A DNA stretch of 64,000 nucleotides, taken from contig CP096135.1 of NCBI GenBank assembly GCA_023213195.1, positions 622,548 to 686,547 of the forward strand. The letters are read 5' to 3'. Under the pieces are notes generated by a model that was not told where the DNA came from, ran no database searches, and saw only the letters and a program-made list of their open reading frames with translations. The translations under genes and the position numbers were made by a program. Origin of the DNA: Sphingobacteriales bacterium JAD_PAG50586_3. Lineage in GTDB: Bacteria; Bacteroidota; Bacteroidia; CAMBQF01. Shown piece by piece: positions 17,554 through 61,652 of the stretch. Position 1 is the first letter of the stretch; the number at the start of each line of letters is the position of its first letter.

Positions 17554-17964
17554 TTATTCTATTTCACCGATGCAACAATCTTCTCTTATTTTGTAGTGGC
17601 TAATGGTAGATTCCAATATATATCCTTTGTAGGGTGAATAATACAAATCGCCATGAAAGAAATAATCATAGCATATAATGCTTTGACATTTTTCTTTCGC
17701 TATTTTATCATCAAGCTCTTTTTCGTAATGCACAATAATATCTGTACCGATTAACGAATCATATTTGCTGTTTTTACCATAGCAGTTATGAAACTTTATT
17801 ACACGCCATTCCTGCTCATAACAATCCCCACAGGCATATTGCATATTGTGGCATTCAAGATCTAAATTCTCGGCAACTTTAAAAGGAACAAAATACCAGA
17901 TCGCTAACCCGCTGGTTGTAAGCGCAAAAATTATTAAAAAGAGGATTAGTGTTTTCTGTTTCAT
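17554..17964 (-). CDS. Single-pass membrane protein of unknown function
   Basis: 136 residues from the ATG at 17964. The first 30 residues (KQKTLILFLIIFALTTSGLA) form a membrane anchor or signal. The rest has seven or more cysteines (ECHNMQYACGDCYEQ, CQSIICYD, REDCCIGEIE), suggesting disulfides outside the cytoplasm. The start overlaps the stop of the methyltransferase by one base (TAATG). The longer in-frame extension to 18042 lies over the methyltransferase and is not credible. Function not recognised. Confidence 0.65.
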   Translation of the reverse strand: MKQKTLILFLIIFALTTSGLAIWYFVPFKVAENLDLECHNMQYACGDCYEQEWRVIKFHNCYGKNSKYDSLIGTDIIVHYEKELDDKIAKEKCQSIICYDYFFHGDLYYSPYKGYILESTISHYKIREDCCIGEIE

Positions 17965-18735
17965 TAATTCGGTTTCCTCGCCACAATAAAAACCGAGCTG
18001 CCAAAAGGCGCACGTGTAAATAACTTCATTTCCAGCTTGCAAATACCGTATAGCAGGCTATTTAACCAAGTGGGCGGCATGTCAATATCTGATTGGGTTT
18101 TCTTTTGAAACTTCCGCACTAAATAGACTAGGGGAGATAATAAAAAAGGCCACTGGGTGCAATTGACAATTGATAATTGACAATTGACAATTATACCCAC
18201 AAGTTCTTTTGGAACAAAACGGGTAACTATACCCACTGCCTTGTCATGAGAACCACTGAACGCAGCATGTGCCGGGTTATTCATTATTAGCAATCCGCCT
18301 GGTTTTAGCAACGATTTAAAGCCTTCAATAATTGGTGGGATTTCGTCCATTGTAAAATAGCAAAGCACATCGTTACAGATGATAACATCGAAGGTTTGTC
18401 CGTTGGCTTTTTGGGGCAACTCACGCACATCAGATTGGATAACATTTAAGCCGCTCTGCGTACAAATTTCGACAGCTAGTGGCGATACATCGGCACCAAC
18501 AACATTAATACCTTTATCAAGCAATTTTAGCATTAATCCACCTGTACCGCATCCGGCATCAAGGATTGAGACCCCTCCCCTGCCCTCCCCTGAAAGGGGA
18601 GGGGTATTAAAGTCCTCCCCTTTTAAGGGGGAGGATTTAGGAGGGGGTCATGCTCTTTTCATGCAACGCCCTGTACCACCAGTGGTTGCCTTCCACTGCG
18701 GCCATGCGCTTATATTCTTCGGGGTTGTTAAGCAT
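17964..18735 (-). CDS. SAM methyltransferase carrying inserted repeats (frameshift at the insertion)
   Basis: The start MLNNPEEYKRMAAVEGNHWW then YRALHEKSM (18735 onward) is the usual N-terminus of this methyltransferase group. It is followed by an 80-bp palindromic repeat (18570-18649), after which the gene resumes with SILDAGCGTGGLMLKLLDKG (motif I GCGTG), VGADVSPLAVEIC and DVIICNDVLCYF. The repeat is open in the downstream frame, but one base must change between ATG at 18653-ish and the repeat to join it. A second intrusion near 18152-18196 encodes IVNCQLSIVNCTQ from repeated AATTGTCAATT units. It overlaps the glycosyltransferase stop by 8 bp. Likely role with the glycosyltransferase: methylating a lipid or glycan carrier; this is inference. 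Confidence 0.7.
18570..18649. repeat. Double-hairpin repeat inside a coding sequence
   Basis: GACCCCTCCCC ... CTTTTAAGGGG ... GGGGGTC, 80 bp, bounded on both sides by the complementary GACCCC/GGGGTC. It contains two palindromes (CCTCCCCTGAAAGGGGAGG and CTCCCCTTTTAAGGGGGAG). It interrupts the methyltransferase between its N-terminal helix and the first strand of the Rossmann fold. Confidence 0.8.
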
Positions 18736-19633
18736 TAAATGATTTTTTGGCCTGTTTAAACTCCTTCTGCACAGCCCTTATTTTTAGTTTGAAAACAAAT
18801 GCCGAAACAAGTAAAACCAAAAACAATAGTATACATAAAAACAGCAGGCAAATAAAGCCTGTAAAGATGCCGAAATTGGCATTGCCCACCGGTTGGTCTG
18901 ACATGATAGAAACCATTGCAAAAAACCAAAACACAGGTACCATAACCACCAATAGCAACATCATTGCATACTTGTTTTTTCCACTATCCATCATAGATAA
19001 GGTAGTGCCTGTTAAACGGCTATAATCGTACCGCGACGGGATAAGGCTTGGCTTATGTTCTACCACCACAAAACTGTATTTGGGCGATAGTTGAAAAATC
19101 AACCCATCTAAATACGTACCGCCTGTTTGTATTTCTAATACCTCGTCCAAGAATTTACGGCTTAATACTTTAAAACTGGACAAGTACAGCTTAAACGGTT
19201 TGCCAATAAAAGCTACCGCCAACAGGTTGCTAAGCCAACTGCCCAGGTTACGGTCGCGGCTGTGCATTTTCTCGCTGTACCTTGCATACACTACATCGTA
19301 GCCTTTCTCCGCTTCGGCTAATAGTTTTAATATTTCACTTGGAGGGTTTTGCCCATCATCATCAATAATAGCTACATAGTCGGCGGTAGCATAATTCAAG
19401 CCGCACATAACCGCGTTAAACTCGCCCACATTTTTAGCCAACGAAATAGCCTTGATATTGGGATGGGTTTCTGCTAAATTAAAAATCACCTCTTCACTAT
19501 TATCCACACTTCCATCATTTACCAATACCAACTCAAAATCAATATGCCCCAATGCTGCAAAGCAATCGCCCACTACCGTTTTAATGGTGGCAGCGCTATT
19601 GTAAACAGGTATAACTACTGATAGGTGCGGCAT
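18728..19633 (-). CDS. Family 2 glycosyltransferase with membrane anchor
   Basis: 301 residues. The GT2 start is SVVIPVYNSAATI, with the nucleotide-binding ELVLVNDGSVDNSEE and the metal-binding DXD as YVAIIDDDGQNPP. SRDRNLGSWLSNL and a basic region precede it as in DPM1/ArnC-like enzymes. Two transmembrane helices are at about 222-245 and 255-283 (LLLVVMVPVFWFFAMVSIM; FICLLFLCILLFLVLLVSAF), so the catalytic domain faces the cytoplasm. It probably transfers a sugar from a nucleotide or to a polyprenyl phosphate carrier. It is followed by the methyltransferase with an 8-bp overlap, suggesting a shared pathway. Confidence 0.85.
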   Translation of the reverse strand: MPHLSVVIPVYNSAATIKTVVGDCFAALGHIDFELVLVNDGSVDNSEEVIFNLAETHPNIKAISLAKNVGEFNAVMCGLNYATADYVAIIDDDGQNPPSEILKLLAEAEKGYDVVYARYSEKMHSRDRNLGSWLSNLLAVAFIGKPFKLYLSSFKVLSRKFLDEVLEIQTGGTYLDGLIFQLSPKYSFVVVEHKPSLIPSRYDYSRLTGTTLSMMDSGKNKYAMMLLLVVMVPVFWFFAMVSIMSDQPVGNANFGIFTGFICLLFLCILLFLVLLVSAFVFKLKIRAVQKEFKQAKKSFNA

Positions 19634-19640
19634 TTTTAAC

Positions 19641-19676
19641 TCCCTCCCCTTAAAGGGGAGGGTTGGGGAAGGGGTC
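19641..19676. repeat. Short palindromic repeat
   Basis: TCCCTCCCCTTAAAGGGGAGGGTTGGGGAAGGGGTC. Near-identical to the copy at 44369 (CCCTCCCCTTAAAGGGGAGGGTTAGGGAGGGGTC), directly upstream of the glycosyltransferase ATG. Confidence 0.7.
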
Positions 19677-33375: not shown

Positions 33376-34492
33376 TTAATCAACCTTAAACGAGCAGGTA
33401 ACCGGGTAATGGTCGCTAAGCTCGCGGGCAATGGTTTCAAAGTCGGCGCTTTTAATGTCTTTGCTATGCAAAATATAATCTATTCGGAACGATGGGAACC
33501 TGTCTATAAACGTACGCCCAATGCCCGAGCCGCTAATTTTAAAGGCATCGTAAAGGCCGCGTGTTAGGGTTGCATAGGTGTACGATGTTGGCGGGTCGTT
33601 AAAATCTCCACAAACCAATACTTTATAGGGGCAATTGCGTATGTGCGATGATATAACCTCGGCCTGCCATGCGCGGCGTACAAAGGCCCTCTTCATGCGG
33701 GCCAATATATTCTTTGCCCCCTCCAGTTCGTCTACTTCTTTGTCGGCAGATATATCGGTAATAAACTTATAATCTTCTTTACCAAAGCGGATGGATTGCA
33801 GGTGCATGTTGTATACCCTAACGGTATCGGCACCTATAAGCATATCGGTATAAATACAGCGGTTTGATGTTTTATCAAACGTAATTTTGCCTTGGTTTAG
33901 TATGGGGAAGCGCGTAAAAGTAGCTAAGGCCAAAGTGGTTGGTTTTTTGCACCGTGGTGGTAATTTCTACGTGGATGTTTTTGGCTTTCATAAAACTTTG
34001 CATCGTATCTAACGAGTTAAAGTCTTTTTGGTCTTCGTAGTAAAACTCCTGAAAGCACACAATATCAGGCGATTCCTCATCTAAGAGAGAGAAAATCTGG
34101 TCGCGGGTTTTGGTGTTATTGTTCCAGTTATACAAATCGAACAGGCGCACGTTGTACGACATTATTTTGTACACAGAATCGGGCTGCTCGGCCAGTTCGG
34201 CCATGGTGCGTTTGTTGCTAAAAAACTGTATGTGGTAAAAATTATCAAACGTTCTAAACCCTATAAGAATGGCTATAAGTGATATTAGCACCTGCGGGCG
34301 AAGGGTTACGGCCCAGTAAACAACAAACAGAATGTTTACCAGCAGTATAACGGGGTAGCCCAGGGCAAAAAAAGCCAGTAACCAATAGTCGGCGGGGCTG
34401 TAGCGTGCCGCTAAATAAGCCAGCAATAGCGCGCATGCCGCCGCTATGTTGAGAAAGAACATTATTTTATTTCCCAGCGATAGCTTTTTCAA
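33376..34492 (-). CDS. Membrane-anchored endonuclease/exonuclease/phosphatase family protein (one frameshift)
   Basis: Two frames make about 370 residues. The N-terminal part (33875-34492) has about three transmembrane helices (IMFFLNIAAACALLLAYLAA and others to residue 80), then the catalytic start KIMSYNVRLFDLYNW and PDIVCFQEFYYEDQKD with the metal-binding Asn and Glu. The C-terminal part (33376-33933) has VRVYNMHLQSIRFG with the catalytic His, VLVCGDFNDPPTSY and LSDHYPVTCSF at the end. Break near 33930. The fold hydrolyses phosphodiesters or phosphomonoesters; the substrate is not known. Confidence 0.8.
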
Positions 34493-34592
34493 CGTATAGT
34501 GCCTGTTGGTGTTTAATTAGCGTAAAAGTACAATTACCTTGCCTTAATTAATGTGATATGTTGCCCGTATATCAACATACGTGGTTTTAAAA

Positions 34593-44313: not shown

Positions 44314-44368
44314 ATACAGCCAAATTAATAAAAAACCCCACCGATAAGGCAGGGCTTTAATATTTTAT

Positions 44369-44403
44369 TCCCTCCCCTTAAAGGGGAGGGTTAGGGAGGG
44401 GTC
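44369..44403. repeat. Short palindromic repeat
   Basis: CCCTCCCCTTAAAGGGGAGGG then TTAGGGAGGGGTC; nearly the same as 19641-19676. It lies just past the queA stop at 44406. Confidence 0.7.
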
Positions 44404-44405
44404 AA

Positions 44406-49712: not shown

Positions 49713-49791
49713 AAACAGGCTATAGTTTTATTTGCCACTTTGTAGTGGGGCAAAAACACTATTTTTGCCCCCATATTTGGTAAACAAAAGC

Positions 49792-50668
49792 ATGGCAAAA
49801 GCAAAAACAATAGTAGTTACAGGTGCACACGGGCAACTGGGCACGGTATTAAAAGAACTGGCAGAAACGCTTCCGGGCTTTAATTTTGTGTTTACCGATG
49901 TTGCCGACCTTGATATTACCAAGCCGGTAGAGCTCAAAGCACTTTTTTAACCTGCATGCGCCTAAGTACCTTATTAACTGCGCCGCTTATACTGCTGTAG
50001 ACAAGGCTGAAAGCGAACCCGCTATTGCCCGCCTTATAAATGCCAAAGCGGTAGAAATGATGGCTACCGAATGCAAGCTGCACAAAACAAAATTTATCCA
50101 TATTTCTACCGACTATGTGTTTGATGGTATTGCCAGCAACCCTTATGTAGAAACCGATTTTACCAACCCTTTGGGTATATATGGCCTTACCAAATGCGAG
50201 GGCGAAGAGGCGTTGATGCTATCGGGCTGCGATGGGTATGTGCTTCGCACATCGTGGTTATACTCGGTATACGGGCATAATTTTTTAAAAACTATTATAC
50301 GCCTTGCAACAGAGCGCGATAGCCTGAACATTATATCTGACCAGATAGGCACCCCTACCCTGGCCGATGATTTAGGCAGGACAATTTTAGAGCTTATACG
50401 CCAGTTAACCGATAAAAAGAAAGTGCCTACCGGCATATACCACTTTAGCAATGAAGGTGTTGCCAGCTGGTACGATTTTGCCCATGCAATAGTAGAACTA
50501 GCAGGCATAAAATGCAAGGTAAACCCCATACTTACCAAAGATTACCCTACGGCATCGGCAAGGCCTGCCTATAGTTTGCTAAACAAAGGCAAGGTAAAGG
50601 CGGCTTTAGGTATTGAAATTCCGCACTGGCGCGATAGCCTTAAACAAGCGGTAACCAAATTGGTATAA
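49792..50668 (+). CDS. rfbD: dTDP-4-dehydrorhamnose reductase (one frameshift)
   Basis: About 292 residues after repair. IVVTGAHGQLGTVLKELAET is the NAD(P)-binding loop. The next frame has YLINCAAYTAVDKAESEP, FIHISTDYVFDGIASNPYVE, NPLGIYGLTKCEGEEALML with YxxxK, SWLYSVYGHNFLKTIIRLA and DQIGTPTLADDLGRTI. The break is near 49944 (CTTTTTTAA; one T too many gives a stop). It makes dTDP-rhamnose for surface glycans. No rfbABC neighbours are seen. Confidence 0.87.
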
Positions 50669-55659: not shown

Positions 55660-56297
55660 CCTTTGAAACCTCCCCCGTCCCGCCTCAGGCGGGAGCAACC
55701 CTTCGTGAGTGGGACAAAAAAACTGATGCGCAAAATTGATAGCTTCTGCTACCGCCCGTAGGGTTTCCGTACCCCTCCGCCGATCACGCCCTTGGCGTGA
55801 CGTCACCTCCCCTACAAGTAGGGGGAGGAAAAACCGAGTAACGCGAGGTTAGGAGGGGTACAGGGTGAGCAGAAATGTATTGATTTGCTACCGCCTGTAG
55901 GACCTCCCCCTCCCCCTCCTAAATTTAGGAGGGGGTGTCGCGGCATTAGCCGTGACGGGGGTGGTAGCATGCGCGAAAATAGAGTATTGACTACCGCCTG
56001 TAGGGGTTAAGCATAACAGGGTAACCACCCCATTCTGACTTAAACAGTCAGAATTACCCCTCCTTAAAAAGTAGGGGAGTTTAAAAAAATAGTGAGCAAA
56101 AACGCACTAATTAGCTACCGCCGCAGGCGTTACAGCCTGGGCAAGCCTGTAAGGGTTAACTCTCCCCCGACACAGGTTGGTTAACCCCAATATGTACTTG
56201 AGAACGGTCACCCCCTCTCTTAAGTTTAAGAGAGGGGGACGGGGGAGAGTTATGGTGAGCAGAAACACATTGTTCTGCTACTGCCTGTAAGGGTTTA
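55660..56297. repeat. Array of composite palindromic repeats
   Basis: A gene-free stretch of about 0.8 kb (55584-56402). Five copies of a mini-palindrome GCTACCGCCTGTAGGGGTTA and variants start at 55748, 55887, 55989, 56114 and 56277. Each is preceded by a fragment like GTGAGCARAAAYRYATTGAT. The intervals are filled by GC-rich double hairpins: 55771-55860, 55901-55970, 56021-56081 (nearly identical, reverse-complemented, to 6471-6528) and 56161-56255. Spacing is uneven, 102 to 163 bp, and the units vary, so it is not a CRISPR array. No ORF is credible in it. Confidence 0.75.
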
Positions 56298-60507: not shown

Positions 60508-60902
60508 ATGCTTCTTAGGTATTTCACCCTTTTACTTTGGCTTGCTGTTGGTTTAACAGGCATAGTAACAGCGCATTTATTTTTAATTGATAGTGGGCAA
60601 ACAGCAAGCGAATTTGACTTGCCTATGTATTTTTTGCTGCCTGCGTAATTGGTGTCCAAATAGCATCAATGCTTAGTTCAAGCCTGGGTATAGACGCCCG
60701 CAGTAATATGCCACATTGGAAAATGTTGTTATGGCTTGGCTTCTATTTGTTGCTGCTGCTTATTCACATGGAATTTAAAACACGGCATTGGGCAGGCACA
60801 ATAATACTAAGCGGCTTAGTATACTATATACCCGGCGTGGTGTTTTTTCTTTTCTGCCTAAAAAATGTAAGAAGGGTAGACCGACTGCGGTTTAAGCCGT
60901 AA
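60508..60902 (+). CDS. Small membrane protein with a related HWAG motif (one frameshift)
   Basis: About 131 residues after repair. MLLRYFTLLLWLAVGLTGIV starts it. A run of six T at about 60630-60635 should be seven to read MYFFAACVIGVQIASMLSSS; the other frame is 60669-60902. It carries FKTRHWAGTIILSGLVYYIP, similar to the partner upstream. Four helices. Its stop lies 11 bases inside the convergent purQ end. Confidence 0.6.
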
Positions 60903-61583
60903 CCAACTGCAAAATGCTCTCGAAGATAGCGCGGCCATCGGTGTTGCTAAGCTCTTCGTCGGCGGCACGTTCCGGGTGGGGCATCATACCAAATACGTTT
61001 TTGCCAGCATTGGTAACACCGGCAATATTGTCTAACGCGCCGTTAGGGTTGCTTTCGGGGGTAATGTTGCCATCCGCATCGCAGTAACGGAAAAGCACCT
61101 GGCCATTATCGTTAAGGCGTTTTAACTCATCATCCCCAACATAAAAGCGGCCTTCGCCGTGGGCAATAGGTATTTTTAAAGCCTTATCGGCATTCAAACC
61201 ACGGGTAACCAACGTATCCATGTTTTGAGGCTTCATATAAATGTTTTTGCAGATAAATTTATGGCTGGCGTTGTGCAGCAGCGCACCGGGGTTAAACCCG
61301 CTTCGCACAAAATTTGGAACCCATTGCAAACACCCATCAGGTAACCTCCGCGGTTGGCGTGGTTTATCACCTCATTCATAATAGGCGAAAAACGTGCAAT
61401 AGCCCCAGAGCGTAGGTAATCGCCATAAGAGAAACCACCGGGCAATACAATAAAATCGCAGCCTTTAAGGTCGTGTTCTTTATGCCATAAGCGCTCTACT
61501 TTTTGCCCCATAAGGGTTTCAAGCACATAAATCATGTCGTGGTCGCAATTAGAGCCGGGGAATGTTACAACGCCAAATTTCAT
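60892..61583 (-). CDS. purQ: Phosphoribosylformylglycinamidine synthase subunit PurQ (one frameshift)
   Basis: About 229 residues after repair. [20 protein letters not shown] starts it, with the glutaminase Cys in [18 protein letters not shown], then after the break [38 protein letters not shown] and [18 protein letters not shown] with the catalytic His and Glu. The break is near 61290 (TTTAACCCC). PurQ supplies ammonia to PurL in purine synthesis. A TATCTTTG element lies at 61588. Confidence 0.92.
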
Positions 61584-61587
61584 GCTA

Positions 61588-61595
61588 CAAAGATA
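61588..61595 (-). promoter_or_regulatory. Bacteroidota -7 element for purQ (TATCTTTG)
   Basis: Read on the minus strand, only 5 bases before the purQ ATG at 61583. The -33 would lie inside two copies of CAATTGAGCATTGA, a small direct repeat. Confidence 0.5.
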
Positions 61596-61652
61596 GTGAT
61601 TTCAATGCTCAATTGTCAATGCTCAATTGTAGGTTTACGGCAATAAATGGCT

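Follow-up and report, generated by a model that had tools for sequence, protein, structure and literature searches.

A palindromic repeat within a methyltransferase gene lies at a predicted loop that in related bacteria holds other repeats or lacks one

The window analyzed here, a 64,000-nucleotide stretch of the genome of Sphingobacteriales bacterium JAD_PAG50586_3 (hereafter G000), contains an 80-bp, G+C-rich palindromic repeat that begins with GACCCC, closes with GGGGTC, and lies inside a methyltransferase gene read on the minus strand (Table 1). An earlier reading of the letters, made without database searches, had placed an 80-bp repeat with these ends at the same coordinates, which our analysis confirmed. 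Folded as single-stranded DNA, the repeat forms two hairpins enclosed by an outer stem, with a fold z of -3.7 on the plus strand and -2.9 on the minus strand; its fold was matched by 1 of 200 shuffles on the plus strand and by 2 of 200 on the minus strand. The window copy comprises two units on opposite strands, and other copies are often single.

Table 1. Features of the window, with positions counted from its first letter
Feature	Position	Strand	Basis
Methyltransferase, downstream piece: 27 open repeat residues, SAM motif I, and remainder	17964..18647	-	translation; Pfam
Seven-base tandem repeat in the same gene, second variable spot among orthologs	18160..18197		sequence; ortholog comparison
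Double-hairpin palindromic repeat inside the methyltransferase gene	18570..18649		motif, translation, fold, own-genome matches
First hairpin, unit type B	18583..18603		fold; model match, - strand, 18569-18608
Second hairpin, unit type A	18613..18635		fold; model match, + strand, 18609-18649
Methyltransferase, upstream piece: 32 residues, stop within the repeat	18637..18735	-	translation; orthologs
Further unit copy, just before the neighboring glycosyltransferase	19637..19676	+	model match
Exonuclease-family gene, frame-broken	33379-34516	-	Pfam, translation
Further unit copy	44365..44404	+	model match
rfbD, frame-broken	49740-50665	+	Pfam, translation
purQ, frame-broken	60895-61601	-	Pfam, translation

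Within the gene, the repeat separates the N-terminal helix from SAM motif I. The upstream frame, starting from the ATG at 18735, encodes MLNNPEEYKRMAAVEGNHWWYRALHEKSMTPS and then reaches a stop in the repeat, four codons beyond HEKS. A TGA at the edge of the repeat precedes the open part of the downstream frame, which reads 27 residues, PPPKSSPLKGEDFNTPPLSGEGRGGVS, directly into ILDAGCGTGG (SAM motif I); this piece matches the Pfam family Methyltransf_25 (E 2.4e-17), and the two frames are offset by one. Our translation is therefore in agreement with the sequence-only reading that the N-terminus, running leftward from 18735, enters the repeat, that the protein resumes at the SAM motif, that the repeat is open in the downstream frame for about 27 residues, and that it has one frame mismatch with the upstream part. 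Its claim that the repeat can be read through is not supported for the window copy, which, as the sequence stands, is without a single open frame. The gene call for G000 is a truncated protein of 186 residues (P0019).

We compared the same linker in three genomes of the genus, namely G000 itself and the same-genus G001 and G002. The G001 ortholog has no repeat in its linker, and the DNA of the G002 ortholog shows another palindromic repeat at this spot, read in frame. The repeat is also absent, and the linker short, in all 23 of the more distant ortholog loci (L061-L083; 35-44% identical), a count from which the distant loci L084-L086 were excluded; the absence from related methyltransferases that had been proposed as a check was thus found both in G001 and in these 23 loci. 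Relative to the orthologs, the window copy lacks the end of the helix that precedes the repeat (RVFSAIKK in G001 and RVMGVLK in G002), and because this helix end is missing, the window repeat is not a clean addition, so that a clean insertion into the window gene is ruled out. Among 18 close relatives (P0001-P0018, P0017 being the G001 protein), which were drawn from the best 120 of 658 protein matches and compared as protein sequences, 13 have long, mutually differing linkers, for example NSPPNVGGVPRSGEGVLSG, LIPLTPFSKREGE, NTSSPLRGTPPILRGE, NTPSPFAGGE, and LDPLPTLPLKGEGYNTPSPFAGE, and five have short ones. In a tree of 44 rows, for which the linker was left out of the alignment, the sisters P0001 and P0002 (support 100/99) carry different linker peptides at 93.9% identity elsewhere, as do the sisters P0003 and P0004 (support 97/96) at 92.9% identity. 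Linker classes, which were assigned by eye, change nine times on this tree against a shuffled mean of 13.5, and they are partly inherited. Since G001 and L061-L083 are without the repeat, G002 carries another palindrome, and close relatives have differing peptides, we conclude that repeats come and go at this linker. The earlier suggestion that the repeat family moves is borne out to that extent, but the window copy replaces part of a helix and was not merely added.

To place the peptide in the protein, we modeled P0007 with AlphaFold2 (77 relatives; mean pLDDT 93.3). In the model, the repeat peptide sits between the helix at residues 19-29 and the strand at residues 54-58, and pLDDT is 75 for residues 31-40 and 53 for residues 41-50. 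A comparison with the PDB returned a class I methyltransferase fold (best match 4htf, E 8.3e-13), so that both the Pfam domain and the predicted fold identify the host gene as a class I SAM-dependent methyltransferase. A floppy loop predicted beside an intact fold fits with a tolerance of many different peptides.

Repeats were also found in other genes. In the AroE (shikimate dehydrogenase) of G001, AVNTI and GYNTD are separated by NPSPLRGTPPTLEGE, which is encoded in an open frame by repeat DNA that by eye is the reverse complement type of the G002 methyltransferase repeat. The G000 aroE (L013) holds two repeat units at that loop, with differing frames, and against the PDB relative 3don its upstream piece stops at residue 90 and its downstream piece begins at residue 94, which makes the two nearly adjacent; no aroE was found in G002. 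The long loop is present in 11 of the 26 closest AroE proteins examined, and the other 15 have the short one. In a mannosyltransferase, the first site carries an insertion of nearly identical DNA in the same frame in G000 and G001, whereas the DNA of the second site, a loop, holds different hairpin repeats in the two genomes, the frames of the G000 copy (L018) differing. At this second site, G000 has three hairpins in a row (positions 1330-1560 of L018), which are stacked repeats in one loop, and G001 has two different ones, in frame; the site was judged by eye to be repeat-like in 17 of 20 close proteins and not so in the other three. Further, a P-type ATPase gene of G000 (L006) contains a repeat copy with differing frames, the same site in G001 and G002 having other residues and open frames, and an ACC-deaminase-like gene of G000 (L124) contains a copy in a local open frame, with the 5' part of the gene in another frame.

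These genes come in part from scans. The G000 scan for gene hits covered 83 loci plus the window, which form 75 distinct repeat clusters. Its open-reading-frame part gave six open spans, of which we accepted two (the mannosyltransferase L018 and the ACC-deaminase-like L124); the L004 span resembles a 5' extension, a further span of L124 lies on the opposite strand, and the L135 and L164 spans are ambiguous. Its flank part gave four candidates, with one accepted (the P-type ATPase L006). The window gene and aroE were found by eye and flagged by neither scan, and because both scans missed them, the five repeat-hit genes in G000 are a lower bound. In a scan of 22 loci of G001 and G002, only L112 (mannosyltransferase) was accepted, and the open spans of L115, L088 with its duplicate L057, L110, and L116 were not.

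The window repeat belongs to an abundant family. By blastn (E<=1e-3), it has 22 matches in its own genome, two in G002, and none in G001. A covariance model built from 19 units, with which 150 candidates were scored per genome (150 of 1717 in G000) and whose E-values are rough, gave at least 131 matches in G000 and 33 and 32 in the other two genomes at E<=0.01. Judged by these sequence matches, the family is present in all three genus genomes compared and is commonest in G000. Of 122 distinct units, 66 have GGGGT at the tail, 28 have GGGGTC, four have GTAG, and none has CGTC. Palindrome type C, which by eye is ∼48 bp long, occurs as an exact pattern in one place in G000, one in G002, and none in G001.

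As for a mobilizing enzyme, Y1 transposase (RAYT) genes number three in G000 (L023, L024, and L025) and six in G001 and G002, and a search of these nine loci (nhmmer, E<=1) gave no match to the window repeat. A Y1 transposase acting in cis was rejected on this ground and because the G000 genes are flanked by other repeats; its action in trans is possible. By eye, L023, L024, and L025 each stand amid distinct repeats, namely GGTCCGGAGGACC for the first, CCCCGCACTTTAGTGTGGGG with GGGCTTTAGCCC for the second, and CACGCCGTGGCAGGTG for the third, surroundings that resemble small REPtrons of other families.

The window copy is one of these abundant palindromic repeats, situated at a predicted loop at which relatives have varying repeats or none, and we therefore consider it probable that such repeats move and are translated. 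Hairpin-forming units would be copied, as hairpin DNA, into new places, whether through recombination among existing copies or by an enzyme that works in trans, and the survivors would be those that landed in loops, in an orientation and frame free of stops, where selection would retain them. A loop once occupied may stay tolerant and so become a site of repeat-for-repeat exchange. Weighing against this reading are the broken frame of the window copy, the long loops that show no 5-mer match to translated repeats (see below), the absence of the repeat from the nine Y1 transposase loci, the single occurrences of the exact type C pattern in G000 and G002, and the partial inheritance of linker classes. 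With somewhat less confidence, we further favor the broader view that fixed loops of core enzymes (AroE, the methyltransferase, and the mannosyltransferase) serve as lasting docking sites, at which several palindromic families swap between close species with the frame kept, so that the loops are continually rewritten.

A group of non-sisters on the tree, namely the window gene and P0002, P0007, and P0011, has an HE(K/R)S junction in common. This junction may reflect a favored target or an exchange across lineages, and it also speaks for the alternative that homologous recombination of the gene spread the loop variants among related species, with few true insertions needed. We regard this alternative as doubtful. 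At the methyltransferase loop (P0001 versus P0003) and at the AroE loop (P0176 versus P0177), both directions of palindrome type C are translated, a pattern that exchange alone does not produce. Moreover, the long AroE loop is gained or lost between proteins that are 94-96% identical, as in P0179 (long loop) and P0188 (short loop), which are 95.8% identical outside the loop.

A second alternative is that the window methyltransferase is a pseudogene, in which the repeat arrived, removed the helix end, and broke the frame. The one-step offset of its frames and the missing helix end are what such a history would leave, and frames differ likewise in the G000 aroE, P-type ATPase, and mannosyltransferase second site. 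However, genes of the window that include housekeeping functions, such as purQ and rfbD, are broken without a repeat. The purQ gene lies in two frames (GATase_5 profile positions 4-111 and 108-234), with the break somewhere within ∼61286-61323, a stretch containing a CCCC run; rfbD has its first 44 profile positions in another frame, with the break at a T run; and an exonuclease-family gene is split, its first piece scoring just below the Pfam cut-off. A motif scan found none of the motifs of the window repeat family at these three breaks. Because these genes are broken without the repeat, indels in the assembly, a single 4.16-Mb contig, are the likely cause of the window frame break as well. 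Uncorrected indels are the simplest reading of the frame breaks, given that purQ is among them, and they would affect the G/C runs in repeats too, so for the window copy an assembly indel in a base run is a likelier source of the break than true gene loss. Further, P0002, P0007, and P0011 also lack the helix end, yet their frames are open, and P0180 contains an AroE peptide in the repeat order of the G000 aroE in an open frame. We therefore hold the pseudogene reading to be unlikely.

Far less probable is a third alternative, namely that the linker is protein sequence of an ordinary, fast-evolving kind and by chance rich in Pro, Gly, and Ser. For G000, G001, and G002, it is refuted by the DNA, which at the called sites is palindromic repeat. 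For the proteins, we examined 5-mer matches to a library of six-frame translations of 143 repeat regions (G000, G001, and G002), from which the loci of the tested genes were excluded, as were the truncated proteins P0019 and P0022 from the test. Matches are many times commoner in the long loops, with 24/299 positions in the methyltransferase, 46/191 in AroE, and 49/495 in the mannosyltransferase, than in the rest of the same proteins (22/7546, 17/6099, and 36/6153, respectively), and the maxima in the long loops with shuffled libraries (n=50) were 12, 15, and 22. Short methyltransferase linkers gave 0/79 matches in P0014-P0018 and 3/293 in P0020-P0040, and short or non-repeat loops gave 0/62 in AroE and 0/108 in the mannosyltransferase. 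At least one match is present in 8 of 13 long-loop methyltransferases, 10 of 11 AroE proteins, and 13 of 17 mannosyltransferases; the remaining 5/13, 1/11, and 4/17 are without a match, and some long loops are therefore not tied to repeats by this test, among them the linkers of P0008 and P0010, which speak for ordinary sequence. With 4-mers, the result pointed in the same direction by a smaller margin (86/263 against a shuffled mean of 52.7, in a run without P0002 and P0008). Least credible is that the repeat is a translation switch enabling the start of a shorter downstream methyltransferase: the stop does lie within a strong hairpin with an open frame downstream, but in that frame the first listed start codon (ATG, GTG, or TTG) is at 18533, past SAM motif I, and close relatives read straight through.

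Intragenic REPs and Rickettsia palindromic elements are already established (PMC3733652; PMC10969869; PMC6006769), the latter being in-frame palindromic insertions of ∼150 bp in unrelated genes, whose peptide the host protein is expected to accommodate (PMC10969869). The sequence-only reading had likened the window repeat to these elements, and the likeness stands for the effect: repeats lie in frame in unrelated genes at the DNA level (the G002 methyltransferase, the G001 AroE, and the G001 mannosyltransferase). It does not extend to family membership, since the size given in that text differs from the 80 bp of the window repeat (∼48 bp for type C), the sequence is different, the host belongs to another phylum, and CGTC, which at one end marks the RPE-4/6 type (PMC3733652), tags 0 of 122 units. 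The window copy itself is also not in one frame, and a further difference is that close relatives here have exchanged repeats at a shared site.

The window repeat shares with REPs, REPINs, and intragenic GTAG/CGTC repeats its short G+C-rich hairpins, many copies, some intragenic positions, and frequent inverted pairs, and its two hairpin units in inverted orientation are REPIN-like. Unlike REPIN and REP-RAYT systems, it has the GTAG end tag in only 4 of 122 units and CGTC in none, and none of the nine Y1 transposase loci in G000-G002 has the repeat beside it. A precedent for a shared site is Xanthomonas recB, in which different REPs are reported at about the same site (PMC3733652). The enterobacterial RU-1, RU-2, and RU-3 elements, as described in PMC2759123, are small mobile sequences within genes that carry open frames, as here, but they measure 103 to 168 bp and have other hosts. 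In the literature searched, which covered few subscription journals, we found no report of the window repeat family and none of same-site repeat exchange in Bacteroidota. As far as that literature goes, what is new is this repeat family in the lineage, together with the fast replacement of one repeat by another at a given loop of several core genes; the unusual feature is the same-site turnover, in which the loop remains a repeat site and the repeat changes.

In-frame genic palindromes are best known from Rickettsia, where dating them has been hard. Here, sister proteins differ mainly in the loop repeat, and the rate, direction, and frame rules of insertion are therefore measurable. Selfish repeats as a source of new protein loops also become testable in well-understood enzymes such as AroE. 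Annotators should note that repeat DNA may underlie Pro- and Gly-rich loops in genomes of this kind, and that base runs in such repeats can break gene calls.

Several smaller observations concern the window. The open frame of the glycosyltransferase next door (18728-19676) extends 5' of its ATG into a repeat copy, and this upstream extension encodes TPSPTLPFKGRELK ahead of MPHLSVV. A gap between open reading frames at 55800-55935 contains inverted repeats of the GGAGGGG type, CCCCCTCCTAAATTTAGGAGGGGG among them, which are more loosely related to the window repeat family. In the methyltransferase gene, seven-base repeats (caattga in the window and of the aattatg type in G002) stand directly 5' of the part coding for WPFLLSP. 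The exact pattern AATTGACAATTGACAATT has four occurrences in G000, two of them overlapping, and none in G001 or G002. The seven-base-repeat spot is seen at the equivalent place in L027, L028, and P0001-P0018, and its peptide varies among relatives (NCQLSIVNC, NYELLIMNS, and GYQLSVINC).
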